A stretch of DNA of 64,000 bases, from contig QQUA01000016.1 in the NCBI GenBank assembly GCA_008501825.1, positions 62,001-126,000 on the forward strand. The letters are read 5' to 3'. The notes below the pieces were generated by a model that saw only the letters and a program-made list of their open reading frames with translations, was not told the origin of the DNA and ran no database searches. This DNA is from Planctomycetota bacterium. GTDB lineage: Bacteria > Planctomycetota > UBA1135. Positions 25,722 to 44,045 of this stretch are shown here, piece by piece; within the stretch, counting starts at the first letter, position 1, and each line of letters begins with the position of its first letter. The translations under genes and the position numbers were made by a program.

Positions 25722-27569
25722 TTAGGGGTTTGAGGTGGCCTCCGCCTCCTCCTCGTCTCCCCCACCATCTTCGCCATCCGGCTCAGTAAGGAAAAATGGT
25801 TTGACTTGGTAAGCCGTAGACAAGCCTTGGAATGAAAGTTCCTCCCTCAGCTTATTGGAAGCGGCGGTGCGGCCATAGGACTGGGCAATGGTCAACTCGC
25901 TCGGCCAGATTTTTTCCTTATCCACCGGGCGCCGGCTTTCCAGACGAACCACCAACCAACTTTGACTTTGCGGATGTTGGAAGGGCCCCAGGATTTGGCC
26001 ATCTTCCAAGTCCCCCAAGTTCTGCCCAACCTGTCCGCGCAAGAATGGAATCACTTGTTGATCGGTGGAAAATTTCGGATCCGCAGGGCGAGGGCGGCGA
26101 CCGATCCAGTCGACCAAATTCAAGCTTTGCTCCGCTTGCGTGGCTTGCTCTTGGAAAGCTTCCATTTCCAGGACCACGGGATCCTCTTCGGCAGCTCCTT
26201 CCTCTCGAGGCAAACCGTCAACGAAAGCTTCGGCGCCTTCTTCCGCCAGTTCGGCCTGACGTTTCTCACGCCAATAATCCACCACCGAATCCCGGACCTC
26301 AGCCAATTCCGGAAGGGTGCGTTCCTGAATCTGTTTCGGCCGCACCAAATAGGCCAGATCTTCACCAAGGATGGGTAAGGTCAACCATTCATCGACAGTA
26401 CCCCGGACAACCTGTTCTAAGCGAGGGCTGCCAAGCCGCGGGAAGTCCTGAAGTTGAGACAAAACGACCATTTCCTCGGCCAGAATTCGTTCCAAACCCC
26501 GCTCATCGGCGAAAGCTTGAAGGTCTTCCACTCCATCCAACTCCTCCGCCAAACTTTCCATCAGTTGATAAAGGCGGTAATCCCTGGCAAGACGCTCTTC
26601 ACCAATCTGCTCCCGGCTCATCGGACTTCCATCTTCCTGCCGGTAGGAAGTAAATCGCTGAATTCGGAAAAAGCCATCCAAATCGTCTTCGGTCGGCTCC
26701 AATTCAGGAGCCCAACTTTGCACAGCTTCGGTTTCCAAAGCTTCGGCGCTTAAAGCCAAGGCTTCGAAGCTGGCGGCTTCCTCGTTCTCCAGATCCCTTC
26801 TCTGCTGAGGACTTAAACCTTCATCGAAGAAAGTCTGCAATTCCTCTTCACTGGGTTCCAAAGCAGCGGCAGCATCGACAAAATCTTCGCCCTTCCACTG
26901 TAGATAGTGGAATCGGATTTCTTCGTTCTCTTCCGCCCAAGCTTCCAAAGCTTGTTGGGTGGTACTGACGGCAGAGGAAGCCAACAATTCCCGGACCACT
27001 TCTACCCGCAAGCATTCTCGCAACAGGCGCTCATAGCCGGTCCGGCTGCGTTGCCGCAAGCGAGCCAAGTATTCGTCGTAGGTGGTCACTCGCATGAACT
27101 GCATTTGCAATTGGATTTGCTGCCGAATGCGTTCATCGGTGATGCCGATTTCGAGCTCATCGGCCAATTCCCGGAGTACGGCATAACTCAGGATGGATTC
27201 CTCATTCAGCTCCCGGTCGGCCAATCCACTGAATAAAACCGTAGATTCCACCGAAGCCCAATTTCGAGCCGTCAGCCAATCCTCGCCGGAAATCGTGACC
27301 TCATCACCATCGGGCACCACCATGGTGGCTTGATCCTGAGGGCCGGCTCCAACCAGACTGGCGAAAGCGGACATCATGGGCCCGGTGACCGAAAAGATCA
27401 CCAGACAGAAGATGGCGACTCCGATTAACAGGATTCGCTTGCGCTTACCCATCTTGGCGGAGGGTTGAGAGGAAGCGCCCTCGGGTTCAGGCGCGGTGGC
27501 CCGAGCCGGTTTGTGCTGATGCGAGGGCTTTTTCTTGGCTTTACTACTCATGGCGGCAGTGCCTGGCAA
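25722..27569 (-). CDS. PpiD/SurA-like membrane-anchored peptidyl-prolyl isomerase/chaperone
   Basis: N-terminal TM (KRKRILLIGVAIFCLVIFSV), helical SurA_N-like region, FLRGQVGQNLGDLEDGQILGPFQHPQSQSWLVVRLESRRP rotamase-like end. Confidence 0.7.
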   Translation of the reverse strand: MPGTAAMSSKAKKKPSHQHKPARATAPEPEGASSQPSAKMGKRKRILLIGVAIFCLVIFSVTGPMMSAFASLVGAGPQDQATMVVPDGDEVTISGEDWLTARNWASVESTVLFSGLADRELNEESILSYAVLRELADELEIGITDERIRQQIQLQMQFMRVTTYDEYLARLRQRSRTGYERLLRECLRVEVVRELLASSAVSTTQQALEAWAEENEEIRFHYLQWKGEDFVDAAAALEPSEEELQTFFDEGLSPQQRRDLENEEAASFEALALSAEALETEAVQSWAPELEPTEDDLDGFFRIQRFTSYRQEDGSPMSREQIGEERLARDYRLYQLMESLAEELDGVEDLQAFADERGLERILAEEMVVLSQLQDFPRLGSPRLEQVVRGTVDEWLTLPILGEDLAYLVRPKQIQERTLPELAEVRDSVVDYWREKRQAELAEEGAEAFVDGLPREEGAAEEDPVVLEMEAFQEQATQAEQSLNLVDWIGRRPRPADPKFSTDQQVIPFLRGQVGQNLGDLEDGQILGPFQHPQSQSWLVVRLESRRPVDKEKIWPSELTIAQSYGRTAASNKLREELSFQGLSTAYQVKPFFLTEPDGEDGGGDEEEAEATSNP

Positions 27570-28408: not shown

Positions 28409-29347
28409 TTATTCAGGTTTCGGGACGACAAAGGCCTGTGCCGGCGGAAGAAGACTGGGAAGCCGTTCTTGGGCAGTATAGCGGCGAACCATCTCCTCAA
28501 ACCAGGTCCTGGCTTCCAAGGGAGTGATCGCCTGGCGGCGAAGTTGCTCCAGCAACACCACGGCAGGAGCCGGCCGGTTTTCCGGCGGCAGCCGGCTCTC
28601 CAAGCGCACCACCCGCCAAAGTTGGTCGCCTTCGAATTGAAACGGCCCGACCACGGCACCGGCTTTGGCCGACTTCAGTTTCGAGCGCAAGGGTTCGGGA
28701 AGGTAGACCGCCACCGGAGGGAAACTGGAATCGCCCTTGGGCCCAGGGTCCATGGATTCTCGAGCCAACATGCGCGGATCGGCGCCCTTGCGCAAGCGCC
28801 GAGCCCATTGCTCCGCCTGCTGAGGATCCGCTCCGATCAGCATGTGGAATTGGTATCGGCCGGCGGCCATGGCGTCCGCCCGCAACACGATCTGATAGAG
28901 CTGGTTGTCGCCTAAATGACGCCTCAGCACCGCTTCGACCTGAGACCAATTGCGACCGTATCGCCCTTGGGCCCAATCTTCCAATTCTTGATCCTCGGCC
29001 AAGCCTGCTCGGATGCCGTTCACCGATTGAGCCACGGCAGTGTCCAACTCATCGGGATCCACTTGATAACCCATCCGCTCCGCTTCCAAGCGGGCGAATT
29101 CACCACGCAATAGGCTCCGCACCATGGCCCGACTTTCGTCGGGAAACATAAAGACGGTCTCGGCGGTAAAAGCCCGAGCATCCATGGCCCGACCATCCAA
29201 CATGATTTCGGACAAAAGCGCCGGATGCCCGCGCCAAGGGAAAGCCACCTCGGTTCGGGAGGATGGCCCGCCACAGGCCAGAGCCCCAAGGGCCAAAGCC
29301 AATGCCAGCGGAACCGGCTTGCCGGACCAGCAGGAAGTCACCACCAA
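28409..29347 (-). CDS. Parvulin-like peptidyl-prolyl isomerase lipoprotein
   Basis: Lipobox-like ALGALACGG; PGPKGDSSFPPVAVYLPEPLRSKLKSAKAGAVVGPFQFEGDQLWRVVRLESR. Confidence 0.7.
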   Translation of the reverse strand: MVVTSCWSGKPVPLALALALGALACGGPSSRTEVAFPWRGHPALLSEIMLDGRAMDARAFTAETVFMFPDESRAMVRSLLRGEFARLEAERMGYQVDPDELDTAVAQSVNGIRAGLAEDQELEDWAQGRYGRNWSQVEAVLRRHLGDNQLYQIVLRADAMAAGRYQFHMLIGADPQQAEQWARRLRKGADPRMLARESMDPGPKGDSSFPPVAVYLPEPLRSKLKSAKAGAVVGPFQFEGDQLWRVVRLESRLPPENRPAPAVVLLEQLRRQAITPLEARTWFEEMVRRYTAQERLPSLLPPAQAFVVPKPE

Positions 29348-29350
29348 TCG

Positions 29351-30883
29351 CTAGTAGAAGTACACCGCCCGCCGTTTGCTCACGCCTTGGCAGGTTGGAC
29401 ATTTGTGGCGCTTTTCTTTGGCCCCTTCGGCACCGACTTCGGTGACCCGAATCACTCCGGTTCCACCGCAGGTGATGCAGTTATCAAACCGCGCCCGGTG
29501 CAATTTGTAGTCACCGGAAAATTCGGCGTAGTAGGCCAGCAGGAATTGAAAGCGCTCCGTGGCGGTGGCTTTACGCCACCAGTCTTCCGGCGAATATTCT
29601 TCATCTCCAGAAGCTTTGCGGCGTGCACGATCGAGGTTTTCCAAATACCTGCGAGTCCGTTCTTCCAGCTCCCGTTGTTCCGGAGACTTGCCGTCATCGA
29701 TTTGTTCTTCTTCCACCTCCAAGCCGGCCAAGGCCTTGTCTTCACCCAAGATCCAGGTGCCGTCGCCATAGGTGGCTTGAAGGCGCCGAGGAGTATGCTG
29801 GAAACGATTTCCCCATAAGGAGTCCAACTCTTCAGGAGAAACGTCGTCTTTCATGGATTTCAAATCATCCAATAGTTTTTCCCGAACTTTGCTGGGAGCT
29901 TCCGTTTCCGCCCAGCTCATCAAGCTGTCCATGGTGACGTTGGACTCATAAGACTTGCGCTTGACCACCCCGACTACCCGCTTGAACCATTGACTGACCA
30001 AGTGGCGTTCCATGGCCGCCTTGCGCTCTTCTTCGAAACGGTCCTGCAACTCCAAGAATTCTCCGCGCAAACCGGCTTGCGGGAATTGGCCTTCGAAGGC
30101 ATCCAATTTCTCCAAAGCGGTGGTGAAGCGACCTCGGTGCATCAACTGGCGGATCTCGGTCAAGGCCGCCGCCTCTTCCCGATGGGCCATGGTCTGTTCC
30201 AACTCGTCCAAGGCGACCTCAACCCGACTCGCCAAGGCTTGATCCCCTTCGGCTTCTGCGGCTTCCGACGCCGCCTGGAGGTGTTGTTGCGCCTGTTCCA
30301 AGGCATAGACACTGCGCAATTCTTGGGCGAATTCATAATGCCGCAAACCGGAATCCAAATTTACTTCCAGCAGGCGCTCGTCGTAGAACTGCTCCGGGGT
30401 CAAAATTTGATCGGCGGGCACCACCACCGGTTCCGGAGGAGCCGCCAGCATCCTTAAAGCCACCTTGGTGGTGTTCTCCCGAATTCTCAGTTCAAGAAAC
30501 TGGGCGTCCTTGCGCAACACACGCCCGACCAATTGGCCGCCGTTTTTCAGCATCAGCAAGTCGGCGGTCACCGTCGGGATGCCGCTTTGCTGGCGATAAC
30601 CGAAACTGGTTTTCAGGCGCTGCCCTTCACCGGGAAACAAGTCGTTCCAACTCAAGGCGTAGCGACCTCCGTGACGGCTGGAAACCAATACCAAGCCGTC
30701 CAGATCGTGTTCCACGATGTTTCCGACCAACAAGCGGCCGTCGCGGAGGCGAACGATTTCGTTCTCCCCAGGAAGATCTTGAGCCGCACTCCAGGGAGCG
30801 GCCGCGGCCAGAACCGTAAACAACAGGAGGAGGAGGGATCGCATGGCTTTCTTGCTTGACATGGCGGGAGACAGCCGGCTCAT
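29351..30883 (-). CDS. Secreted protein with C-terminal DnaJ-type CxxCxG zinc motif
   Basis: Signal peptide; C-terminus CITCGGTGVI...HKCPTCQG. Confidence 0.65.
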   Translation of the reverse strand: MSRLSPAMSSKKAMRSLLLLLFTVLAAAAPWSAAQDLPGENEIVRLRDGRLLVGNIVEHDLDGLVLVSSRHGGRYALSWNDLFPGEGQRLKTSFGYRQQSGIPTVTADLLMLKNGGQLVGRVLRKDAQFLELRIRENTTKVALRMLAAPPEPVVVPADQILTPEQFYDERLLEVNLDSGLRHYEFAQELRSVYALEQAQQHLQAASEAAEAEGDQALASRVEVALDELEQTMAHREEAAALTEIRQLMHRGRFTTALEKLDAFEGQFPQAGLRGEFLELQDRFEEERKAAMERHLVSQWFKRVVGVVKRKSYESNVTMDSLMSWAETEAPSKVREKLLDDLKSMKDDVSPEELDSLWGNRFQHTPRRLQATYGDGTWILGEDKALAGLEVEEEQIDDGKSPEQRELEERTRRYLENLDRARRKASGDEEYSPEDWWRKATATERFQFLLAYYAEFSGDYKLHRARFDNCITCGGTGVIRVTEVGAEGAKEKRHKCPTCQGVSKRRAVYFY

Positions 30884-31290
30884 GAGTCTAAACGGCGACT
30901 CATGGGCACCTGTTTGGCTAAAAGAAAACTGAGCCGCGCCACCGGCCGCTCAGGATTGGAGCGATAAAAGCGCAGGCGTGCCCGGGGCAGGCCATCGGCT
31001 CTCTTGGGGTTTTCCACGATCAAGTCGTATTTGTAGTCCGGGGCTCCTGGCACCGGTTGGGCCAGGAATTCCTGCAACCGGGTGGTGCCGCCTCCGGAAT
31101 CCAGCATCCAAGCTTCGTCGAGAAGCTTTTGCACCAGGGGTTCGACGTGTGGGGCCAATTCGGCATGGGCCCGGGCGGTGTTTTCCATGCCACCGCCAAA
31201 CTGAAACAAACCTAGGAGAGCCGTGACCCCGACCAGGAACAAGCCCATGGCCAGGAGCACTTCAATCAAGGAAAAACCGGACCGGTTCAT
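30880..31290 (-). CDS. Prepilin-type pseudopilin (GspI-like)
   Basis: MNRSGFSLIEVLLAMGLFLVGVTALLGLF prepilin signal; start at 31290 inside longer track ORF. Confidence 0.8.
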   Translation of the reverse strand: MNRSGFSLIEVLLAMGLFLVGVTALLGLFQFGGGMENTARAHAELAPHVEPLVQKLLDEAWMLDSGGGTTRLQEFLAQPVPGAPDYKYDLIVENPKRADGLPRARLRFYRSNPERPVARLSFLLAKQVPMSRRLDS

Positions 31291-32210
31291 GGAGCCCACC
31301 TCCTTCCTTCGGCCACCACCCAAGCTTCTCCAGCATAGCTCTTGGGAAGCAAAACCGGCGCCCGAGCGGGGTGAGCTTCGAAACTGGTATCCCTCAGCCC
31401 GCGCTCGGCAATGGACAAAGTCGGCGGGGTTCCGCTGACCCGCATCCATTCTTTCTCCACCAAGGCGAATTCCGGAATCTTGAAGGGGAGTTGTCCGCGC
31501 AAACGCATGCGGTTGCCCGCAGCCTCTAAATCTTCGTCCAAGCGTGGAGGTCGATTGCGGGCCGATCCCGCCACCCGTTCCAGGCGTAGGCGAACCTTGG
31601 CCGGCAGGTCGCGGACCGGATCGGGAGGAATTTTCCATTCCTCATGCCACTGCCCTTGGCTATCCAGAGCCGCGAATTCGGCCCAAGCCACTCCGTCTAA
31701 AACCACTAGACCGGCACCCTCTCGAGCCCTTCGTTCCACCAAGCGATCGCTGCTTAGAAAAGACTCGGACGGATTCTCCAATTGAGTCAGGCGCATCAAG
31801 CGGCAAAGCCGGCTGTTGGCAGGATCCTCCGGCACCAGCATCCAGACGATTTCCACGGCGTGTCGAGCTTCCGGATCTTGATCCAGGGCCGCCCCGCCGT
31901 GGGCCAAAAAACGCATTCGGGGCAGATACCAAGCTTGTTGCGCTTCGCCGGCGGGAACCGCCTCCCAGAAATCGACTTCAAATCGGCCGCGAGCTCCGTT
32001 GTGCAAAGCCCGCAAATCGGTACGCAACTTCTGCAAGGTCGAACTGAACACCAAATCGCCATGGCCACGGCGTTCCCCGTTCTGCCACAAGCCCATGACC
32101 GAATTCAAAATACCGGCGACGAACAGTCCGAGCATGGCGAATAGACCGAGAGCCAACAACACCTCGATGAGGGTCATGCCGGAGCGGTTATTACGACCAG
32201 CGGTTTTCAT
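31287..32210 (-). CDS. Prepilin-type pseudopilin (GspJ-like)
   Basis: RSGMTLIEVLLALGLFAMLGLFVAGIL; 4-bp overlaps with both neighbours. Confidence 0.8.
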   Translation of the reverse strand: MKTAGRNNRSGMTLIEVLLALGLFAMLGLFVAGILNSVMGLWQNGERRGHGDLVFSSTLQKLRTDLRALHNGARGRFEVDFWEAVPAGEAQQAWYLPRMRFLAHGGAALDQDPEARHAVEIVWMLVPEDPANSRLCRLMRLTQLENPSESFLSSDRLVERRAREGAGLVVLDGVAWAEFAALDSQGQWHEEWKIPPDPVRDLPAKVRLRLERVAGSARNRPPRLDEDLEAAGNRMRLRGQLPFKIPEFALVEKEWMRVSGTPPTLSIAERGLRDTSFEAHPARAPVLLPKSYAGEAWVVAEGRRWAP

Positions 32211-35200
32211 TCCACCACCTCGGCCCAGCGTTGAATCCGGGGTTCGGCCAGATAGTCAATCATCAGGTTGCGAAAGCGAGGAGCGGTGGTCCAGCCGAGA
32301 GAACTGAAATTGACCGGATCGAAAGCCCCGACGTCCCAATCGAAACTAATTCGAAGATCCAATCGATCGGAAGCCAAATCCAGCGGATGGAGTCCCCCAC
32401 CCTGGGCTTTGCCTTCTTCCAACAACACCACTCCCGGAGTTCCGGGAACGTCTTCAAAACTGGCTTGGCCGCTACGCAACCACAGCCGGACTTTATGAGA
32501 AGCATCGGGTAATTCCGCTTCGTATTGAAGGCCCCGCCAATAAGCCTGGGGTTCGTCCAGCCCGATTTGCAGCCAGGCGGCTGCCGGACTGCTACTCGCT
32601 GCGACGTAACGGTCCTGCCAGCGGCAGGGAAAACTGTAGACCAAAGTGCCTTGGCCGTGATCGGCGGCCACGGTGCCGAATCGGCCTCGCAAAATGCCGT
32701 CGCCGCGATCTTCCTCTTCACCCGGCAGACTCCGGTGGCGCGGCATCATCAGTTCTTGGTTCTGCCCTTTGTGACTGGTGTGAATCAACTCCTGATCGAT
32801 CAACAAGAGGCTTTCCGGCGGGAACGGGGATCCATCCTCGACGATCAAAGTCGCTTCGCCTGGAGTCACGTTGTTGGTCAAGACCGAAACCGGCCGGCCA
32901 TCGACCACGTACACATGAGCGCCTTGGGCATGACCGCGGGCTTCCGTTCCGTGCAAGCCGCGACCTCCCGGAGCAATTTCAATCTCTCCGGTTCCGGGAT
33001 TGAAGCCGCTGTATGCGATGCGCTCGCCATCGATATCCAGCAATCCGCTTTCGGGGAAGTTCGCGAACCAGCCTCCGGCTTGGGTGGAAAGGCGGCGCCG
33101 GCCGTCCAAAACCAAAGCGTATTGATGCAGGAAAATAGAACGAGGTTCGGTGGCTTCCAAATCCTGATCCAACATCCAAGCTCCACGAGCCAAAGCATTG
33201 TTGGCCGGCCCCATTCCGGCCACCGTATGCAAACTAACCTCGTCAACCATGCCGTTGAAGGAAGTCCCGCCGGAAACGCTGCCGCCGACGTTAAGAGTAT
33301 CCAAACGGACCGGCCGTTCCCCGCTGGGAAACTTCACCAGTCGTTCCATGGTTCGGATGTCGGTGTTCGGAGCGTTCAAGTTCTGACCGCCGACCCAACC
33401 CAAAAATGGCAAACCCGGGTCTTCATAAAAGGCCACGTAAAAACGGCCGTTCTCGGTTCTCGGACTGAGACGGCTGGGCTTGGCCCATTGCACCGTGAAC
33501 CAGTTCGGCGGCAAACTTCCTTGAGGTTGCATCACCGCCACACGATCCTTGCGGCCGACGAATCCGGTGGAGGAATCCAAATTGCGTAAGGTCTTGAACA
33601 CCGGCACCAAGCGAGTTCCGCTTTGCTGGGCGTGATCATAAGTTCCCATGACTCCTCGGAAACCGTAAGCCCGGCGAATGGTTTCGATGGTGTCGGGCCG
33701 GTCGTCCACCGGCTCGCCGATGGTCCGGGCAAACACGAAAGCATCTTCCGTTTCCTGCAATAGCGGCGGGGTGAGGGCATACAAACCGCCACCGGCCCGG
33801 CCTCCAGGCCGGCCGCCGGAACCAATGTTGCCGCCACCGGGATTGCCGCCGTCTCCAGGGCCGCCAGGCTCTTCTGGCACGTCGGCTCGAACTTCACTCA
33901 GATAGGCACTGACTGCATTCTGAAGAGCGCCCCAATCATCGCGCACGAACATTCCGTTGATGATGCTGTCATAGCGCACCCATTCGGTTAAGCCGGCATC
34001 GGCGTCCGAAGTCAGTTGCACGAACTGGGAAAAGTTGTCGTCTCCAGGAAGATAAGTGACGTCACTGATCCCCGATCCTTTCACTGAAATCGGAATGATG
34101 TAGACGTAACTGTCGGGTAATTCCTGCAAGGGAGTATCGTCGCGATAGACGAAACTTTCCCACTCGGTGACGAAGGATCGAGCTTCACTATAAGCCCAAT
34201 CGGGAGGCCCGTCTTCGCCGCTCAACAGCGGCAACTGAATGTTCCTTTGAATTAGATTCAAGGTGGTTCCGGAGCGGGATGAATACTCGACCACTTCCAT
34301 ACCGGAAATCAAACAATTGTCGCCGGTACGCAAACCGTCCCGACCCCAATACACCCACTGCACCATGAGGGCGTAACCGCCGTTTTCCTGGAAAGCCTCG
34401 GCGTAATAAGGATCGCCTTCCGCTTGCGGGATCGGCCCGAGCTCAATCTCACCGAGATAGCCACAGGTGATGCCCATGCCGATTTGGAAACTGCGACCGC
34501 TGAGCGGGCTGACGATTTCAATCGGATCCTGGCCGTTGACGACTTGGGCCAAAGACCAAGGGCCGACGTTGCCGGTTAAACGACCGCCGCCGATAGGAAT
34601 CCCATCCTCGTCGATGATCGCACTGTAACCGTAAAGCTCCACCCCGGAACCGGCGGGGTGGTAGGTATCCAGAGAGTTCACCGCTACGTCCGAATCTTCC
34701 CGGGCGGCGCGGCCGCCCAAATACCCGTCCGGACCAGCAATCCGTTGAGTGATGAAAGTGTTTGCGGTTTTCGACGAATACTCGATGACTTCTTGTCCCA
34801 CCCGCAAAACGCCGCGGTTGGGAAAGCCCTCGGTGGATTCCACCACCAGGACGTCGTCGGGAGAACCGGCGGCGTAAGCGCTCAAGGGCGCCGTCAACTC
34901 GGTGTATCCAAGGACTTCACCCCGGGGAACGCCGTCCACCGCCACCTGAAAACCCCGAGCGGAAATCCCGCGGAGCAAAGTGGAAAGATGGAACCATCGA
35001 TCTTCCAAATCGTATTCCGCCGGATCCACCCGCACTTCCAGGGCTTCTTCCAAATTGTCTTCGTCAAAGGGATCCTGGCCGGCGTTGTCATAGGCTCGAA
35101 TGACCAAGCGCCCTTGTTCGATGGCGGCGAATACCCGCTCTTTGTCCACCTCCGGACCGCTTAAGTCGAATAAAAAGCCGTCCTGCAAGCCGTCGTGCAA

Positions 35201-37198
35201 GCGATACCAAGCTTGGTAATGCAAGGGCTCGTTGGAACTGTACACCCCCTGGGTAGAAGATGCAGCGGTCACGATGTTCCAATCGAACAGCGGGGTTTGC
35301 CACGAGCCCCGTTCGGCAACGTCGTAACCCAAAGGACTGGCTTCAAAATCAAAATGCTCGGTGCGGCCTAAAGTCCCTTGCACGAAGTTGTCCAATTCCC
35401 GAGCCGGAATCGGAATCACCGAAGACTCTTCCGTTTCCTTGGAAGCGACCTGAAGGCCGGTGGTATCCACCGTTCCGGCGCGAAGACTCAAACCATTGGG
35501 GTGATCGTGCTGCCCTCCCAAGCTACCGACGTTGCGAGGCAGGGTGGTGACCCCTTGGGCCCCGCGGCCATAGCGCACCGCATCTTCGAAGTTTTCTTGA
35601 TGGTGCCATAGCTGCAACAAAGGACCGTCCGGCGCCACCCGAAGGTCTTGAACCACCGAAGCTCGGGACCGGGTTCGTCCTAGAGGAGAACGCACCGCGG
35701 CGTTGACCCGTTGCAGATAACGATTGCCGCTGGCGTAACCGAAGGGAACCGTGCTTTGAGCCAAGCTGCCGTGATTGGGATCCAGGCTGTTCAGATAAAT
35801 CAACCACGCTTCCAGATCCGAAAGCGTGCCGTCGTCCATCATCGGCCTTAAAACCCGGATCCAAAGATCTTCCGGACCTTGCAAAGGCCGCTGTTCCACG
35901 ATGGCCGAAGCTACGTCCCGAGCTTGCCGGGGGTGAATCCAACTGGACGAAAAGCGTCCTTGAATCGGTTGTCGGGTAAAGATGGGAGGTCCGGTGCGCC
36001 AACGCAAACCGGTCAGCATGGCTTCCAGGATTTCCAATCGGCAGGCGTTGACGTCCACCGGTTCCCGCAACAAAGGATGCACCCTGGTTTCCAGGATCGG
36101 GAAATTCGGCAACATGGTGAACACCGAAAGCCGGCCGGATTTCGCCAAGGCTCCCCGGCCCATGTCGCGATTGCCGGGGTTGCTGGCGAACACCATGGCA
36201 TAAAGCGGATTCTCCTGATCGACGTCAAAACAAAGAATGGTGCCGGGAGAAGCCACCAAACCGTCGGAAACCGGGGCTCGCCAGGCTCGATCCGGATCGA
36301 TGGGACGATCGATCAACACCGCCGGTCCCCAAGCGTCGCCGCCGTAGGTCCCGACGTCGAACCAGCAAAGGTCTTGCAGATAGCGACGATCCTCTTCCGC
36401 TAACAAATCTCCACCCAGAACCGCCTGATCCAATAAGTCGGACAACACCTCCGGAGGCCGGTATTCACCGTCGGGAATCCTGGCCAAAGCCAAGTTGTAA
36501 ACCCGGCGATCGATCACCGCCAAACCTTGAGGCAACTCTTGCCCGTCGGCTCCGGGAAGGATCAATCCGGTAAAGGCATTGGCGGTCTTCCCGGTGTATT
36601 GAATGAAGATCTCGGGAAAGCCGCCGTCGGTGGGAATGCTGTATCCCATAATCCGCAAGAATCCCTGGTCGGGAAAACCGGCGGTGGAAGTCACCGGCAA
36701 TTCTTCCGCCGGCAAGGCCACGTCCTCCCGCAAATAACAGGGATGCAACAAGTTTTGCAATAGAAGCGGCGGCGCGCTTCCCAGCGAAACCCGGGCTTGG
36801 GCGTTTTCTACCTCCACTCCCCAGGATTGAGCGATGTTCTTCCAATCCTCGCCGAGGGCTTGAGGCAAAGGACCCAGGGTAGTGGGATCCCATTCCTCCG
36901 GACCGTCGTATCGAGGGCTCGGATCCATCGCCGGATGGGATCCGGCCTGATGAAAAATGGAAGCCTGGGTGGCGGACTGAACCGCCACTTGCACTGCAGC
37001 TTGGTCGAAGGCTTCCTGAGACGCCTCCGAACGCAACCGGCTGGTCAACAGAAACGGTACGCCCAGGGAAAACAACAACGCAACGGCCAGCAGCACCACC
37101 AACAGCGCGGAACCGTTTTCGGCCAGGGAGCGGGAAAGGGTGGACAAAGCCGGGCGCTCCGAGGGAGCCGGCGTGAGTGGGCGCAGCTTGGATTTCAA
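32207..37198 (-). CDS. Giant GspK-like protein (1663 aa) with LamG-like and internal beta-repeat segments
   Basis: N-terminal NGSALLVVLLAVALLFSLGVPFLLTSRLRSEAS GspK-type anchor; location among minor pseudopilins; GMVDEVSLH and WFHLSTLLRG LamG-like segments. Confidence 0.7.
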   Translation of the reverse strand: MKSKLRPLTPAPSERPALSTLSRSLAENGSALLVVLLAVALLFSLGVPFLLTSRLRSEASQEAFDQAAVQVAVQSATQASIFHQAGSHPAMDPSPRYDGPEEWDPTTLGPLPQALGEDWKNIAQSWGVEVENAQARVSLGSAPPLLLQNLLHPCYLREDVALPAEELPVTSTAGFPDQGFLRIMGYSIPTDGGFPEIFIQYTGKTANAFTGLILPGADGQELPQGLAVIDRRVYNLALARIPDGEYRPPEVLSDLLDQAVLGGDLLAEEDRRYLQDLCWFDVGTYGGDAWGPAVLIDRPIDPDRAWRAPVSDGLVASPGTILCFDVDQENPLYAMVFASNPGNRDMGRGALAKSGRLSVFTMLPNFPILETRVHPLLREPVDVNACRLEILEAMLTGLRWRTGPPIFTRQPIQGRFSSSWIHPRQARDVASAIVEQRPLQGPEDLWIRVLRPMMDDGTLSDLEAWLIYLNSLDPNHGSLAQSTVPFGYASGNRYLQRVNAAVRSPLGRTRSRASVVQDLRVAPDGPLLQLWHHQENFEDAVRYGRGAQGVTTLPRNVGSLGGQHDHPNGLSLRAGTVDTTGLQVASKETEESSVIPIPARELDNFVQGTLGRTEHFDFEASPLGYDVAERGSWQTPLFDWNIVTAASSTQGVYSSNEPLHYQAWYRLHDGLQDGFLFDLSGPEVDKERVFAAIEQGRLVIRAYDNAGQDPFDEDNLEEALEVRVDPAEYDLEDRWFHLSTLLRGISARGFQVAVDGVPRGEVLGYTELTAPLSAYAAGSPDDVLVVESTEGFPNRGVLRVGQEVIEYSSKTANTFITQRIAGPDGYLGGRAAREDSDVAVNSLDTYHPAGSGVELYGYSAIIDEDGIPIGGGRLTGNVGPWSLAQVVNGQDPIEIVSPLSGRSFQIGMGITCGYLGEIELGPIPQAEGDPYYAEAFQENGGYALMVQWVYWGRDGLRTGDNCLISGMEVVEYSSRSGTTLNLIQRNIQLPLLSGEDGPPDWAYSEARSFVTEWESFVYRDDTPLQELPDSYVYIIPISVKGSGISDVTYLPGDDNFSQFVQLTSDADAGLTEWVRYDSIINGMFVRDDWGALQNAVSAYLSEVRADVPEEPGGPGDGGNPGGGNIGSGGRPGGRAGGGLYALTPPLLQETEDAFVFARTIGEPVDDRPDTIETIRRAYGFRGVMGTYDHAQQSGTRLVPVFKTLRNLDSSTGFVGRKDRVAVMQPQGSLPPNWFTVQWAKPSRLSPRTENGRFYVAFYEDPGLPFLGWVGGQNLNAPNTDIRTMERLVKFPSGERPVRLDTLNVGGSVSGGTSFNGMVDEVSLHTVAGMGPANNALARGAWMLDQDLEATEPRSIFLHQYALVLDGRRRLSTQAGGWFANFPESGLLDIDGERIAYSGFNPGTGEIEIAPGGRGLHGTEARGHAQGAHVYVVDGRPVSVLTNNVTPGEATLIVEDGSPFPPESLLLIDQELIHTSHKGQNQELMMPRHRSLPGEEEDRGDGILRGRFGTVAADHGQGTLVYSFPCRWQDRYVAASSSPAAAWLQIGLDEPQAYWRGLQYEAELPDASHKVRLWLRSGQASFEDVPGTPGVVLLEEGKAQGGGLHPLDLASDRLDLRISFDWDVGAFDPVNFSSLGWTTAPRFRNLMIDYLAEPRIQRWAEVVE

Positions 37199-38223
37199 GG
37201 ACCGTCCTCCGATTCGCGAGCGTATTCTTCAGCGAACCGCCCGATGGTGAAGGAAGTCACGACTTCCCCGTTTTCCAGAATCTCTACCGGAATAGGAGCC
37301 GGATGCCTTTGGGTATCCAACATCCCAAAGCGGTCAAACCAAATTTGGAAGGGCTGGACGTCCACCAGCAATTCCTCCTGTAAAGGAGGACCGGGTTCCC
37401 GGGTCCGGCCCCAAAGAACCAGCTCATCGATTCGGCCGCGAAAGCGACCTTCAGGATCACCCAGTTCCAAAAAGCCTTTGGGTTCAGCCAAAGGGCCTTC
37501 GTAGGCGGCTTCGGCCACGGCTCGGCCGTTTACCCAGATTTGCAAGCGACCGGCTGCGGCCCGGAAACGAAAGTGCTGCCATCTCTCCGGCAGCAACACC
37601 GCCGCCGGACTGTCCAGAAGCAAACTGGTTGCGTCTTGGTCCTGCCCTAAATGGAGCCTTAAGCGAACGCTGCCGTCTTGCCGCCGGCTCAATTCCAAAA
37701 AGTCTTCCCAACGGGCCAATTGGCAGGCCACTCCATCTCGGCTGTAAAGATGGACTTCCATGTCCACCCCGTATGGAGTGCGAATCTGCCCGCCGCGGCC
37801 TTCCACCACCACGGTCCCGCCATCGCTCAAGTCCAAGGCTTCGCCGAAGCGGCCGGCACCGCCCAACTCCGCTGGAGGAATCAATTGCAAACCCTGCCGG
37901 CGTTGACTCTCCTGCTCGAAAGTCGCTTCCAAGATCGGTCGATAGACGAACCGTGAAAAACCGCCGGGATCGGAAAAGTCTTCATTGGGAAGACTCAATT
38001 CCAGCATCACCGGGTGCCCGCTGGCTCGAGCCCGATCCCGGCTGCTTTCCAAAAAAGCCAACAAGGTGTCCTGAAATCCCCGGGCACCGGGGTCCATGCG
38101 CTGAATCGCCAAGCCGCCGACCCCCAACAGAATGCCGATCAGCACCATGACCAGCAACAGTTCCACGAAAGTGAATCCGGCGGGATTCACCCTTCGCCAA
38201 GCATTGCAGGAACCGGTTTTCAA
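37195..38223 (-). CDS. GspH-like pseudopilin fused to concanavalin/LamG-like domain
   Basis: NPAGFTFVELLLVMVLIGILLGVGGLAI prepilin signal; WQHFRFRAAAGRLQIWVNGRAVAEAAY...FRGRIDELVLWGR LamG signature. Confidence 0.8.
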   Translation of the reverse strand: MKTGSCNAWRRVNPAGFTFVELLLVMVLIGILLGVGGLAIQRMDPGARGFQDTLLAFLESSRDRARASGHPVMLELSLPNEDFSDPGGFSRFVYRPILEATFEQESQRRQGLQLIPPAELGGAGRFGEALDLSDGGTVVVEGRGGQIRTPYGVDMEVHLYSRDGVACQLARWEDFLELSRRQDGSVRLRLHLGQDQDATSLLLDSPAAVLLPERWQHFRFRAAAGRLQIWVNGRAVAEAAYEGPLAEPKGFLELGDPEGRFRGRIDELVLWGRTREPGPPLQEELLVDVQPFQIWFDRFGMLDTQRHPAPIPVEILENGEVVTSFTIGRFAEEYARESEDGP

Positions 38224-38286: not shown

Positions 38287-38904
38287 TCAGGATCCTTGGA
38301 AGTGAGTCAAGTCGTCTTCGGTTCCGAACAAGCCATCTTCACCCGCCGAAATCAATTGGTAAGCGTCGGGTTCTTGCCAATTCCCGGTCCGCTCGTGGCG
38401 TTGGGCCTTGGCTTGTTGTTCTTCCCAAACTTCATCGATCCCCGCTTGCACGGTATGAGTCTCGTCATAGTGCAGGGATTCCATGTAAAGAATGGGATTG
38501 CCCCAGGCATCGCCGAACTCGAACAGTTCCTTACTGCCTAGGGAGCTGGTGGCTTTTTGACTGAAATCCTGATCGGTGTTCACCAACCAATCTTGCTTCG
38601 GACGAGTCCCGGTCATGCGCTCATCGAACAAGGCCACCACCAGAGCTTCACAAGGGGCATTGACGCCGTTGGAATTCAAACCTCGGGGAAGGCGGTCGTT
38701 GGGAAACTCCCCCATTTGCTGGCGGTATTGCAACACTAAGTTGGACAGCTCCAGCAAACGAGTTTTGGTTTTCTTTTCCGAAGCCTTGCCGAAGAGATCT
38801 CCACCGGTCACCAGGAAGAAACTCATCAGGATGGCGATGATGAAAAGGACCACCAAGATTTCGAGCAAGGTGAATCCGGAACCGGGACGGCGGACTTGCA
38901 TCAT
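38287..38904 (-). CDS. GspG-like major pseudopilin
   Basis: GSGFTLLEILVVLFIIAILMSFFLVTGGDLFGKASEKKTKTRLLELSNLVLQYRQQMGEFP; FGDAWGNPILY. Confidence 0.82.
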   Translation of the reverse strand: MMQVRRPGSGFTLLEILVVLFIIAILMSFFLVTGGDLFGKASEKKTKTRLLELSNLVLQYRQQMGEFPNDRLPRGLNSNGVNAPCEALVVALFDERMTGTRPKQDWLVNTDQDFSQKATSSLGSKELFEFGDAWGNPILYMESLHYDETHTVQAGIDEVWEEQQAKAQRHERTGNWQEPDAYQLISAGEDGLFGTEDDLTHFQGS

Positions 38905-41579
38905 GGTTGCGCGAACACCAATTCAACCCGCTCGACGGCGACGTCTACCGCAACGGCTTGGCGGGTTCTGGCAAAAGCCCCCATGGTCAATTCCCCGGAG
39001 GCGGTTTTCAAAACGGTCACCTTGTCTTGGAACAACTGGCGACCGTTCGCGGTCACGGTCAAAACCGGCGGTTCCTGCTCACGGTCCAAATCAAACTGAA
39101 CCGAAAGCGGCGTGCCGGCCGCGACCCGAAGAGAACTTCGCTCGTGACCGATCTCGCGAGCGGATTGCCTGGATTGCCACCAAACGGCTCCATCTCGATC
39201 CCGATAAACGTGGAAGAACCAAGTGGCTCGCCCGGCCCGGTTCTCCAGCGAAAGGTACAAACCGGCGTCACCGCGATGATCGCTGCCGGCGGAGATTTCG
39301 CCATGGAAAGCCTGGAAGGTCAAAGCCCTCTGGCGCCGGAAAACCCGGGTTTCCCCTTCCTCCCGATGACGCCCGAGGATTTGCAATCGACCGTTTCGAA
39401 TCGCCGGCTCCACCCCAAGCCTGGCTTGACTTTGGGGATCCCATTCCGGGCGGAACAAGGTGCCTTCAAATTCGTCGGTCCAAAGACGCAGTTTGTCATG
39501 ACCGGCCACCCGGTCCGACCAAAGTTGGGCGTAGGCGTATTGAGTATGGGTCGGCTCCGCCCGCAACATGTCCATCAACTCGCCGAATTCGGCGATGCAA
39601 GTGTCCAGGTCTCCTTCCCGGTAAGCGGCCCAGGCCAAGGCATTGCGAGCTTCATGCAAATCCGGCTGCAAAGCCAGCGCGTCCCGCAACGAAGCTCGGG
39701 CGTCTTCGACCCTTTGTAGGCTCAGAAGATTGATGCCGCGGCGCAGCGCCAATTCGGGAATTTGCGGCGCTTCGACGATGGCTCGGCGCAAAGCAACTTC
39801 GGCCCGATCCAAACGACCTTCGCCGTGCAACAGCCATCCCAATTCGGCCAGAGCGGCGGCGCAACGAGGCCATCCTCCAATCAGGTACCGGAGATCGGTC
39901 CGAGCGGTGGCGGTGTTGCCGTCCTGGCGAGCCCGCCGAGCCCGCAGATAACGGGCATAAGGCCACTCCGGATCCAATTCCAAAGCGGCGTTCAAACTTT
40001 CGGAAGCCTGGTCTTCCTGGCCCATGACCTCAAACCAAAACGCCAAAGCGGAAAGAGCCGGAGCCGCATCCAATTTATCCGCCCTGGAAGCTGCCCGAAG
40101 ATCGCGGACGACTTCGGCAGCCGGTTCTCCATTGGCGGCGGCACAGATTCCTCGCAAGTAAAGCAAATTCGGCTGGGCTCCCAAAGCTTCCACCGCTTCC
40201 ACCGAACTTGCGTAGGCCTCGGCGAACCGCCCGGCCAAATAATCGGTGGCGATCAGGCCGGCCCGGGCTTCAACTTCCGACAGGGCTCCGCTTTGAGCCG
40301 CATTCAAGGCGTCTTGAAAGGCCCGTTTCGCTTCCGGCCATTGTCCTTGTTGCAAATGAGCCTGGCCTAAAGCCACGAAGTTGCGAATCGCTTCGGGGTG
40401 ATTGCGAGAACTCTGAAAACCGGAAGCCTTGCGCAGCCAAGGAAGCGCTTCTTCGGCCAGCCCTTGTTGCAGCAACAACAAACCCAGTTCCAGAGGAGCG
40501 GCCGGATCGGAGTCGGGCAAATCAGCGGCTTCCCGCAAAATGTTCTCGGCCGGTTCTTCCAGTTGGAAAATTCGCAGAACCCGGGCCATGCCCACTCGTG
40601 GAGCGCCTCGAGTGGCGAATTTTCCGGCAGGCACTTCCACCGGCAGTTGGGGGCGGATTTCCCCGGACGGCAAATCAACGCCGGCCAAGCCGGCATACAA
40701 GGCAAAGGCCTGATCGTAGCGGAAGGTCCGTTCCCAAACGCTTCCCAAACTCAACCAGCTCTTTAAATCTTCCCCGGCCAAGCGGATCCCTTCCAAAGCC
40801 AATTGTTCGGCGTGTTGGAAAGCGACCGGTTCGCGAACGCCTTGATCCAACAACCAGCGAATCAACTGGCGCCGATCCAAAACCGCTCCGGCACTGGGGT
40901 CCAGCGCCCGAACCCGCAACTCGATGTCGTTGCGCAAAGTTTTGGCAAAACTAAAGCCGGTGTATTGATCGCCTTCGAAAACTACCGGTTGTCCCCGGTC
41001 GGTTCCGGTTCGAGGATCGACTTGTTGAAAGGTCAGGGGTTCGCCGGGCCGTTTGTCCCAGCGATCCTCGTCCAAAATCCGACCCCACAAGACCAGGAAA
41101 GTGGTTCGCTGAATGGAGTCGTACAAATTGGCGTAATCTTCATCGCCGTCTTGAGCATCGCCATCCTCCAAGGCCTCGCCGCCGTTTTCTTCCACCGCTC
41201 CTTGGTCCAAGGCGTCCATTTCCACCAAATCTTCCAAATCTCCAGGAGGAGCCTTGGGATGAGCCAGCAAATTCCGACTCCAATAATCGGGACCGCTGTC
41301 GGGCAACGGCGGCGGCAGCAACGCCGGAAGGACCGAAAGGTCGGGAAAGGGAAGTTCCAAGGCCGGAAGCGGCACCACGTCGCGAGGTTGGCGGAACGGA
41401 TCCCGACCTCCCCCATCCGCGGCTAAATCATGAACCGGGTCGACCGGCCCTAAATCGGCCAATTCCAGCGGCAATTGAGTGACTCGCGATTTCCGAATCG
41501 GATCCGGATTCAATTTTGACCAAATCAAAAGCGCCAAAATAGCGGCGACGCCGATGAGCAGGATTTGTTCGCGCTTCAC
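38901..41579 (-). CDS. Membrane-anchored TPR protein with C-terminal concanavalin-like domain
   Basis: N-terminal TM; multiple TPR-like repeats (ALELDPEWPYARYLRARRARQDGN...); C-terminal beta-rich FRPEWDP...GDAGLYLSLENRAGRATWFFHVYRD. Confidence 0.72.
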   Translation of the reverse strand: MKREQILLIGVAAILALLIWSKLNPDPIRKSRVTQLPLELADLGPVDPVHDLAADGGGRDPFRQPRDVVPLPALELPFPDLSVLPALLPPPLPDSGPDYWSRNLLAHPKAPPGDLEDLVEMDALDQGAVEENGGEALEDGDAQDGDEDYANLYDSIQRTTFLVLWGRILDEDRWDKRPGEPLTFQQVDPRTGTDRGQPVVFEGDQYTGFSFAKTLRNDIELRVRALDPSAGAVLDRRQLIRWLLDQGVREPVAFQHAEQLALEGIRLAGEDLKSWLSLGSVWERTFRYDQAFALYAGLAGVDLPSGEIRPQLPVEVPAGKFATRGAPRVGMARVLRIFQLEEPAENILREAADLPDSDPAAPLELGLLLLQQGLAEEALPWLRKASGFQSSRNHPEAIRNFVALGQAHLQQGQWPEAKRAFQDALNAAQSGALSEVEARAGLIATDYLAGRFAEAYASSVEAVEALGAQPNLLYLRGICAAANGEPAAEVVRDLRAASRADKLDAAPALSALAFWFEVMGQEDQASESLNAALELDPEWPYARYLRARRARQDGNTATARTDLRYLIGGWPRCAAALAELGWLLHGEGRLDRAEVALRRAIVEAPQIPELALRRGINLLSLQRVEDARASLRDALALQPDLHEARNALAWAAYREGDLDTCIAEFGELMDMLRAEPTHTQYAYAQLWSDRVAGHDKLRLWTDEFEGTLFRPEWDPQSQARLGVEPAIRNGRLQILGRHREEGETRVFRRQRALTFQAFHGEISAGSDHRGDAGLYLSLENRAGRATWFFHVYRDRDGAVWWQSRQSAREIGHERSSLRVAAGTPLSVQFDLDREQEPPVLTVTANGRQLFQDKVTVLKTASGELTMGAFARTRQAVAVDVAVERVELVFAQP

Positions 41580-42343
41580 AGCTCTTCCTCCAACTGGGGC
41601 ATGCCGCCGGCGGCCAATTGCACGTAGACTCGCCGAGCTCGTCCTCGTTTATCCGGCGGAGTCACCGAAAGTTGGTCCAACCCCAGAGGCGGTTGGTGTT
41701 GCAGCAAAGCTTGGACGAAAGTGTGCACCTTTTCATCGGGCAGATGCACTTCCAGACTGACTGGAGTCAAATCCAACACCGAATCTCCCAATCCACGAAT
41801 TCGCTTCGGTGCCCGAGTGGAGATTTCCATGTCGTCGACTTTTTCCGCACCCGAGGCCACCGCAAGTCGCACCACCTGTTCGACCACCGCCAAACCGCGC
41901 AATACCTTTTGAATCTTTTGCGGCTCGTTGGGGGAAGTCGGCGGCAGGCCCAAAGATTCATCCACTTCCACGTTTTGACGCAAAGCCCAAGGAATCAAAT
42001 CCTCTCGGACGTCACCGCTCAACTGAATGTAATGCTGGCGCCAAGATTGCCCTTCTTCCGGTTGATAGGCTTCCGGAAGCACCGGCAGGGTTCGGCCGAC
42101 CAAGTTGCCGGCACGGTCGTCCAACTCATTCAAACGCTGCCGCAATTCAGTGACCGAGGAAGATCCGTACCACTTGGAGCTGCGCAGGATTTTGTTTTGG
42201 GATTGAATGCTGCTTTTGCCGCGTTTGTGGCGGCTACCGACGGTGGATCCGAGAATCGCTTCGGCGATGAGAAACAGCACCAAACCGGCCGCGATTCCCA
42301 TCAGGAAGCGGCGGTGAGTTTGCCAGAAGGCGTCGAAGTTCAT
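41576..42343 (-). CDS. GspM/PilO-like inner-membrane assembly protein
   Basis: N-terminal TM, helical region, small alpha/beta end (VSLEVHLPDEKVHTFVQALLQHQPPLGLDQLSV). Confidence 0.55.
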   Translation of the reverse strand: MNFDAFWQTHRRFLMGIAAGLVLFLIAEAILGSTVGSRHKRGKSSIQSQNKILRSSKWYGSSSVTELRQRLNELDDRAGNLVGRTLPVLPEAYQPEEGQSWRQHYIQLSGDVREDLIPWALRQNVEVDESLGLPPTSPNEPQKIQKVLRGLAVVEQVVRLAVASGAEKVDDMEISTRAPKRIRGLGDSVLDLTPVSLEVHLPDEKVHTFVQALLQHQPPLGLDQLSVTPPDKRGRARRVYVQLAAGGMPQLEEEL

Positions 42344-42389: not shown

Positions 42390-44045
42390 CTATTCATCCT
42401 CGTATTCCTCATCGGAATCGGGATCGGCTTGCACCAATAGCTGAGCGGAAATGGACCACTCCAAATCCCGCCCTCGAGGTTTGGCGGTTTCCCGAATGGA
42501 ATCCTCGCCGCGAGGCAGTTGCGATTTCAGGTCGGCGACAAAGCGATTGAACACCGTCCGGGCCGGCCGGGATGCATCTTGGCCACGGCCGCCGACGGTG
42601 ACCACCGGAACGCTGACGCCGGCCAAGCCCCAGTCTTTTCCTTCCTGCAATTCCACGGCGAAGCTTTCTACCCAAAGGTTGTCGGGCAAAGCCGCCAACA
42701 GGGTTTCGTACATTTCCCAAGCACTTTGTTGTAAGGCGCGCCGGGTTTGCAGTTCTTGCACGATGCCGGTTTTGCGTTGCACTTCTTCCAGCAACCCTCG
42801 AGCCTCGGCGTCGGCCTTGCTGGCTTTATCCACCTGAATGCGCAACCGGCGGGCGTCGGCCGCCAAGTCGGTGGCTTGGCTCGAAGTCACGAAGAAGTCG
42901 AAGGCCAGGAAAGCGATGACCAAGGCGGCGGCAATCACGGCGAAAATGCCGCGCTCTTGGAATTCGCGGCGCTTGCGAGCCGCCTTGGGCAGGATTTCCA
43001 AGGCGTAGAGATCGGCATCGGCCGCCGACAAAGCCAACCCCAAGGCCACGGAAGCGGCAGGGCCGTCTTCTTCCAATGGGTCGGCCTGCTCCGGCGGCAA
43101 AGCGGACAGGTCCACCATTTCGACTGGATTCCAGACCGAAACGGGAACCCGCATTCTTTCCTGAAAGAATTCGGTAATGCCCTTGGCCTTGGCCCCGCCA
43201 CCGGTAAGCAAAACTCGATCCAGGCTCAAGTCCTGCAATCGAGCTTGGGCTTTGCAAAGGGTCACCACGCTGCTGAGCAAAGTGGGCAAGGGATCGTAAA
43301 ACGGCAATACCGGCCGAGTCACCCGATCCGGATCGGTTTCCAGGCGCTGGCCGATGCCGCCACGCAGATCCATGTGTTTGTGGATCAAGCTCTGGGCCCG
43401 TTGCGGCGAAACTCCCAAGCGCTGGCCGAGACTGGCATCTCGTTTATCCAAGCCAGTGGTCACCGAACGGGCGAAGTACAAATCGGTGCCGCGGACCAAA
43501 CAGAGATCCAAGGTGGTCGCTCCAACGTTGGCCAGCAAGGTGACGGAGGCTTCATGGTCCCCCAAGGCCAAGTAGGCGTTGTAAAGAGCGATCGCGTTGG
43601 GAGTGAAGCCCTGGACCGGCAGTTTGTCCAATAGGCCCATCCATTCTTCCAACAAATCCTCTCGCACCAAGCCAAGCAGGATGGTGTCGTCTTCATCCAG
43701 TTCCTTGGGAACCGGCAAAAGATTAAAGGAGGTTGCCAGCGGAGAACCGGAACGGGATTCCAATTCTCGAACTTCGAAATCCATCAACCGTTCCAAACGC
43801 CAGTCTTCCACCGGTGGAACCGGCAGATAGCGCATCATCAAATCGGAACCGGTCAAGCCCACCCTGGCCGGCGTCGGCTTTTTGCTTAGGCGCCCAAAAG
43901 CTCCGCCGGCCGCTTCCATCGGCGCTTCGCCACCTTCCACGGTTTCGGAGTAATAGCGCTGCAGGCTGATCTCGCCCTTTTTGTTGCGCAATTGCGCCAG
44001 CCGCACCTTGTGATGGCCGGCATCCAATCCGGTGCCCAAGCTCAT
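42390..44045 (-). CDS. PilM/GspL-like actin-fold protein fused to PilN-like TM domain
   Basis: LGTGLDAGHHKVRLAQL, LLANVGATTLDLCLVRG, DRVLLTGGGAKAKGITEFF; TM segment GIFAVIAAALVIAFLAFDFF then PilN-like periplasmic part. Confidence 0.75.
   Translation of the reverse strand: MSLGTGLDAGHHKVRLAQLRNKKGEISLQRYYSETVEGGEAPMEAAGGAFGRLSKKPTPARVGLTGSDLMMRYLPVPPVEDWRLERLMDFEVRELESRSGSPLATSFNLLPVPKELDEDDTILLGLVREDLLEEWMGLLDKLPVQGFTPNAIALYNAYLALGDHEASVTLLANVGATTLDLCLVRGTDLYFARSVTTGLDKRDASLGQRLGVSPQRAQSLIHKHMDLRGGIGQRLETDPDRVTRPVLPFYDPLPTLLSSVVTLCKAQARLQDLSLDRVLLTGGGAKAKGITEFFQERMRVPVSVWNPVEMVDLSALPPEQADPLEEDGPAASVALGLALSAADADLYALEILPKAARKRREFQERGIFAVIAAALVIAFLAFDFFVTSSQATDLAADARRLRIQVDKASKADAEARGLLEEVQRKTGIVQELQTRRALQQSAWEMYETLLAALPDNLWVESFAVELQEGKDWGLAGVSVPVVTVGGRGQDASRPARTVFNRFVADLKSQLPRGEDSIRETAKPRGRDLEWSISAQLLVQADPDSDEEYEDE

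Follow-up and report, generated by a model that had tools for sequence, protein, structure and literature searches.

A predicted giant GspK-type pseudopilin of Planctomycetota carries repeated modules related to phage baseplate and tail proteins

In the HIJK tip complex, GspK forms the cap (PMC9934059). Pilins of modular design occur widely (PMC8179133); one of them, the minor pilin PilC of Streptococcus sanguinis, bears a ConA-like module that binds glycans, and PilC has been modelled at the pilus tip (PMC9934059). In this study, we analyzed a 64,000-nucleotide stretch of Planctomycetota DNA (the window) that encodes a giant GspK-like protein, and by computation we established its repeats, their homology, the operon around it and their conservation. 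Compared with GspK of type II secretion (PF03934; XcpX, PulK), the window protein has the same prepilin N-terminus without Glu at +5, the same VNxNxAxxExL motif of the alpha-domain and the same adjoining G, H, I and J genes. It is, however, about 5 times longer, it adds a LamG domain, a C-terminal beta domain and six phage-type modules, and its operon lacks the secretin and the ATPase. With PilB and PilC of S. sanguinis (PMC8179133, PMC9934059), it would share the grafting of domains on a minor pilin for tip display, and with PilC it shares a lectin module of the ConA/LamG type. PilB and PilC are far smaller, carry one or two grafted modules at the C-terminus only and have no phage-type repeats, whereas in the window system one module lies within the GspK part and a further one on GspJ. 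The domains grafted on the giant minor pseudopilin include LamG, recognized by profile and fold, and the phage-type modules. The protein extends a class, the modular pilins, that was already known; the literature we searched contained no paper on it, and neither Pfam nor NCBIfam annotates it in its own right.

The gene begins with TTG, overlaps the upstream gene by 4 nt, and its stop overlaps the ATG of GspJ. Alignment of orthologs showed that G29 was present in 44 of the 44 that covered this site, that the family has the N-terminal pattern G|xALxxVL with G at -1 and A, V, I, T or L (never Glu) at +5 in the printed alignment, and that it carries a PVNxNxAxxExL motif. Pfam T2SSK (PF03934) was matched by 7 of 23 orthologs, with a best value of 2.6e-5 and one match above the curated cut-off; the window's own protein did not reach the T2SSK threshold in Pfam. 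Searched singly, the protein gave zero matches against Pfam and NCBIfam, and zero against the PDB by phmmer. AlphaFold models were built from the window sequence and orthologs for residues 22-625 (pLDDT 77.8) and 612-1663 (pLDDT 84.1). The N-terminal part showed a long N-terminal helix and further helices at model residues 402-451; Foldseek of this model against the PDB did not recover a GspK structure and returned nothing significant (best E 0.08). Because of the prepilin N-terminus, the VNxNxA motif, the T2SSK matches in orthologs and the conserved pseudopilin operon, we classify the protein, on sequence grounds, as a GspK-type minor pseudopilin, and the label "GspK-like" given in an earlier note on this DNA is borne out. 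The features of the locus are listed in the table.

Table. Predicted features of the giant protein and its operon, in window coordinates (residues are those of the protein concerned)
Feature	Coordinates	Strand	Basis
GspI-like minor pseudopilin	30880..31290	-	Pfam/NCBIfam search and gene order
GspJ-like minor pseudopilin	31287..32210	-	Pfam/NCBIfam search and gene order
Seventh module copy, C-terminus of GspJ-like protein, residues 232-290	31341..31517	-	HMM and profile comparison
Giant GspK-type minor pseudopilin, 1663 aa	32207..37198	-	Frame 37198 to 32207
C-terminal beta-rich domain, residues 1535-1663	32210..32596	-	AlphaFold model
Module R6, residues 1440-1530, tandem to R5	32609..32881	-	Profiles, single-sequence alignment
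Module R5, residues 1376-1438	32885..33073	-	Profiles, single-sequence alignment
Candidate late LamG strands, FNGMVDEVSLH, residues 1285-1330, after R4	33209..33346	-	Model/profile
Module R4, residues 1052-1205, split by disordered insert	33584..34045	-	Ortholog profiles
Module R3, residues 945-1000, degenerate	34199..34366	-	Profiles, single-sequence alignment
Module R2, residues 776-854, strongest phage similarity of all copies	34637..34873	-	Profiles, PHROG
LamG/ConA-like jelly-roll body, residues 612-770	34889..35365	-	Profile and Foldseek
GspK alpha-domain signature PVDVNACRLEILEAM..., residues 376-440	35879..36073	-	T2SSK match in orthologs
Module R1, residues 160-236, within GspK part	36491..36721	-	Profiles, model, single-sequence alignment
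Prepilin-type N-terminus and hydrophobic helix, residues 29-51, G|SALLVVLLAVALLFSL, no Glu at +5	37046..37114	-	Model and ortholog alignment
GspH-like pseudopilin with C-terminal LamG domain	37195..38223	-	Pfam/NCBIfam search
GspG-like major pseudopilin	38287..38904	-	Pfam/NCBIfam search
TPR protein of operon	38901..41579	-	Operon comparison
PilN/PilO (GspM)-like protein	41576..42343	-	Named by position
PilM-like assembly-platform protein	42390..44045	-	Pfam search

The earlier note had described five degenerate repeats of about 45-60 aa between 32625 and 36676. All five quoted segments were located in the frame of the giant protein (residue 175 corresponds to 36676 and residue ~1524 to 32625), and the repeats and their positions were confirmed; there are six copies rather than five, R4 having been missed, and the modules are beta units of ~60-90 aa. 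In the window protein alone, the pairs R1-R2, R1-R5, R2-R3, R2-R6 and R5-R6 outscored all 500 shuffles (p<=0.002), R2-R5 outscored nearly all of them (p=0.008), and these six pairs also scored above all windows of the protein that lie outside the repeats; many of the other pairs failed to do so. We then compared repeat profiles from 45 orthologs with tiles along the whole giant protein. The results showed mutual scores of ~55-72 for R1, R2 and R6, of 33-50 for R5, and of 27-32 for R3 and R4 with whichever copy each matched best; non-repeat tiles peaked at 11.7-20.1, a background that each repeat profile exceeded only against other repeats. R4 was detectable at the profile level only, and both R3 and R4 are degenerate. 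A lack of self-similarity had been named beforehand as grounds for abandoning the repeats; the copies matched each other above both the shuffles and the profile background. By sequence comparison, the giant protein carries six related module copies, and a seventh lies on its GspJ-like neighbor.

In the AlphaFold models, strands lay at matching motif positions of the copies (LxV, GxLxI, ExIxY, xLxxV, then RGxxGT...HxxG and a last strand), as read from the DSSP listing without superposition; R3 and R4 displayed only part of this pattern. The insert that splits R4 corresponds to model residues 494-539 and had pLDDT<50. Distinct folds for each segment, the other outcome named in advance as counting against the repeats, did not occur, the strand order being similar across copies in the two models. 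For LamG, PF13385 was found in 6 of 26 orthologs, all below threshold (best 4.8e-5), residues 612-770 matched the LamG profile of the neighboring GspH with 95.3% probability, and Foldseek matched the C-terminal half of the giant protein to LamG structures. The Pfam LamG match in orthologs ended before the last strands, and R2-R4 may be nested inside the LamG domain. We did not adopt a clean split-LamG model, which was partly supported and left two candidate closing strands.

The gene order PilM-PilN/O-TPR-GspG-GspH(LamG)-K-J-I was kept in relatives of the order and across the phylum. The module HMM matched the C-terminus of GspJ-like proteins of relatives down to 1e-11, and the window's GspJ family matched R5 with 94.6% probability, the remainder of GspJ serving as background; the adjacent subunits K and J therefore share the module. 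No secretin or export ATPase gene was found in the operon, and several of each were present elsewhere in the genome. A further GspK candidate of smaller size (559 aa frame, E 0.003, G000:C10:19572-21395) lies on the same contig, near a secretin and outside the window. The pseudopilin operon held no phage tail genes and does not amount to a virion or prophage tail cluster. An operon protein conserved across the order (29351-30883, minus strand) has a C-terminal zinc motif of the DnaJ type, CXXCXGXG-like. Just downstream, two SurA-like proteins with PPIase domains are encoded on the minus strand at 28409-29347 and 25722-27569, possibly as chaperones for the beta-rich giant.

Orthologs of the giant protein were found in 60 of the 61 genomes searched, the window's own genome counted, and the named ortholog records were Planctomycetota MAGs, UBA1135 among them. 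The one genome of the 61 without the giant protein and without the module (G046, same order) is 85% complete, so that loss or missing sequence could account for it. Of the 201 Planctomycetota genomes sampled across the phylum, 144 contained the module, and most of the frames examined that carry it encode giant proteins within the same operon. Some of these have six clear copies, two of them in tandem where R3 and R4 would lie. R1, R2, R5 and R6 mostly matched the copy at the same position in distant phylum relatives; therefore, the multiplication of the module is probably older than these lineages and, judged from these matches, ancient. Two further arrangements were observed: locus L171 (G172:C116) has two side-by-side giant GspK-type paralogs with four module matches each, and locus L172 (G187:C88:45000-64900) has an open frame of >6600 aa (8478 aa in the module scan) with three module copies, for which no pseudopilin neighbors were found among those searched.

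We compared the modules with phage proteins. PHROG families of baseplate wedge, tail and virion structural proteins matched the modules down to 4.1e-8, and five of these families were each matched by 12-17 of 28 module sequences. The module HMM matched gp7-like proteins of cyanophages as well as a fibre of a staphylococcal phage, where the module sits between a carrageenase-like stretch and a beta-helix stretch; values for the five-protein set were 1e-11 to 1e-14. In the control, reversed sequences gave no match better than 0.16. The window's own R2 found cyanophage baseplate proteins (best E 4e-4), and R6 alone gave E 2 or worse by tblastn against phages, with all matches in cyanophage records and mostly to structural proteins. 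The likeness to virion and tail-fibre repeats suggested in the earlier note is thus upheld as homology to phage proteins, although most of the nearest ones belong to the baseplate wedge and tail and are not fibres. With the cyanophage gp7-like baseplate wedge (for example S-CRM01; phrog_2885, phrog_708), the window protein shares the small beta module FPxxGxLxIxxExIxY...RGxxGT...HxxG. Those proteins are large, with up to two clear copies, and unlike the window protein they belong to the baseplate of a contractile-tail virion and have no pilin part. The module end RGxxGTxxxxHxxG is also common to tail tip hubs of GTA and phages (PF23666 Rcc01698_C; JBD30 tip attachment protein J, 8rk3), with matches below threshold only and with the hub architecture absent from the giant protein. 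Convergence or low-complexity likeness instead of homology could be argued from the shortness of the module, the low global TM-scores with phage proteins, and the PDB and Pfam matches, which stayed below threshold. We consider it very improbable, as independent PHROG profiles of several structural families reached 1e-7 to 4e-8, the five families recurred across the module set, the module HMM matched phage proteins at the values given above, and the reversed control was empty. On these sequence comparisons, the homology of the modules to phage baseplate and tail modules is real. That the giant protein is itself a phage protein was also considered and rejected, an order-level alignment against viral contigs having yielded no whole-protein relative.

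Taken together, the protein is probably a giant modular GspK-type tip pseudopilin that displays LamG and phage-type modules, and it would work in the manner of PilB and PilC of S. sanguinis. Its N-terminal hydrophobic helix would insert it into a type IV filament (pseudopilus), whose tip it would cap together with its neighbors H, I and J; we infer the tip location from the GspK homology, and the assembly of a head is likewise inferred. About 1100 residues of beta-rich domains (LamG, the C-terminal beta domain and R2-R6) appear grafted on the GspK part. The phage-type modules would most likely dock and space the domains as rigid units, from which a large tip head is built up; the modules and LamG may touch an external ligand, be it a polysaccharide, a surface or cargo. 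The putative function is adhesion or substrate capture. Against this reading stand the Foldseek search without a GspK match, the failure of the window protein itself to reach T2SSK, the operon without secretin or export ATPase, and the smaller GspK candidate near a secretin; moreover, we identified no ligand-binding residues in the giant protein.

The protein might instead be mainly a type II secretion component, its bulky tip capturing or pushing exoproteins such as polysaccharidases rather than acting as a surface adhesin. The pseudopilin set G-H-I-J-K with GspK features, the downstream gene for a PPIase-domain protein that many relatives have and the tip function of GspK known from type II secretion (PMC9934059) fit such a role, which we regard as a genuine possibility without favoring it, since the operon has neither secretin nor ATPase, the smaller GspK candidate lies near a secretin elsewhere on the contig, and LamG with tail-type modules is typical of surface contact and less so of cargo gating. 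Purely structural beta spacers, with no ligand and with copy number setting only the size of the tip, are rather unlikely: phylum-wide, position-specific conservation suggests that each copy has its own job, and the LamG alongside suggests binding. Still, R3 and R4 are degenerate yet retained in aligned orthologs, other lineages have the tandem pair in their place, and the best-conserved residues (G, E, R, RGxxGT and H) resemble core or turn residues. A bolder reading, which we hold to be improbable, sees a phylum-wide tip made from the baseplate kit of contractile phages by ancient capture or shared ancestry, in which K and J together make up a head resembling a baseplate; this head would attach to prey, particles or polysaccharides and possibly act on them.

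As a probable modular tip pseudopilin, the giant protein would be a conserved tip protein, near-universal within one Planctomycetota order and widespread in the phylum. Through a common small module, it connects type IV filaments with the tail baseplates of phages, and it offers a concrete candidate for attachment or material uptake by poorly cultured Planctomycetota. The recurrence across much of the phylum suggests a large tip of ancient construction, with which the cell would touch or catch something in its surroundings.
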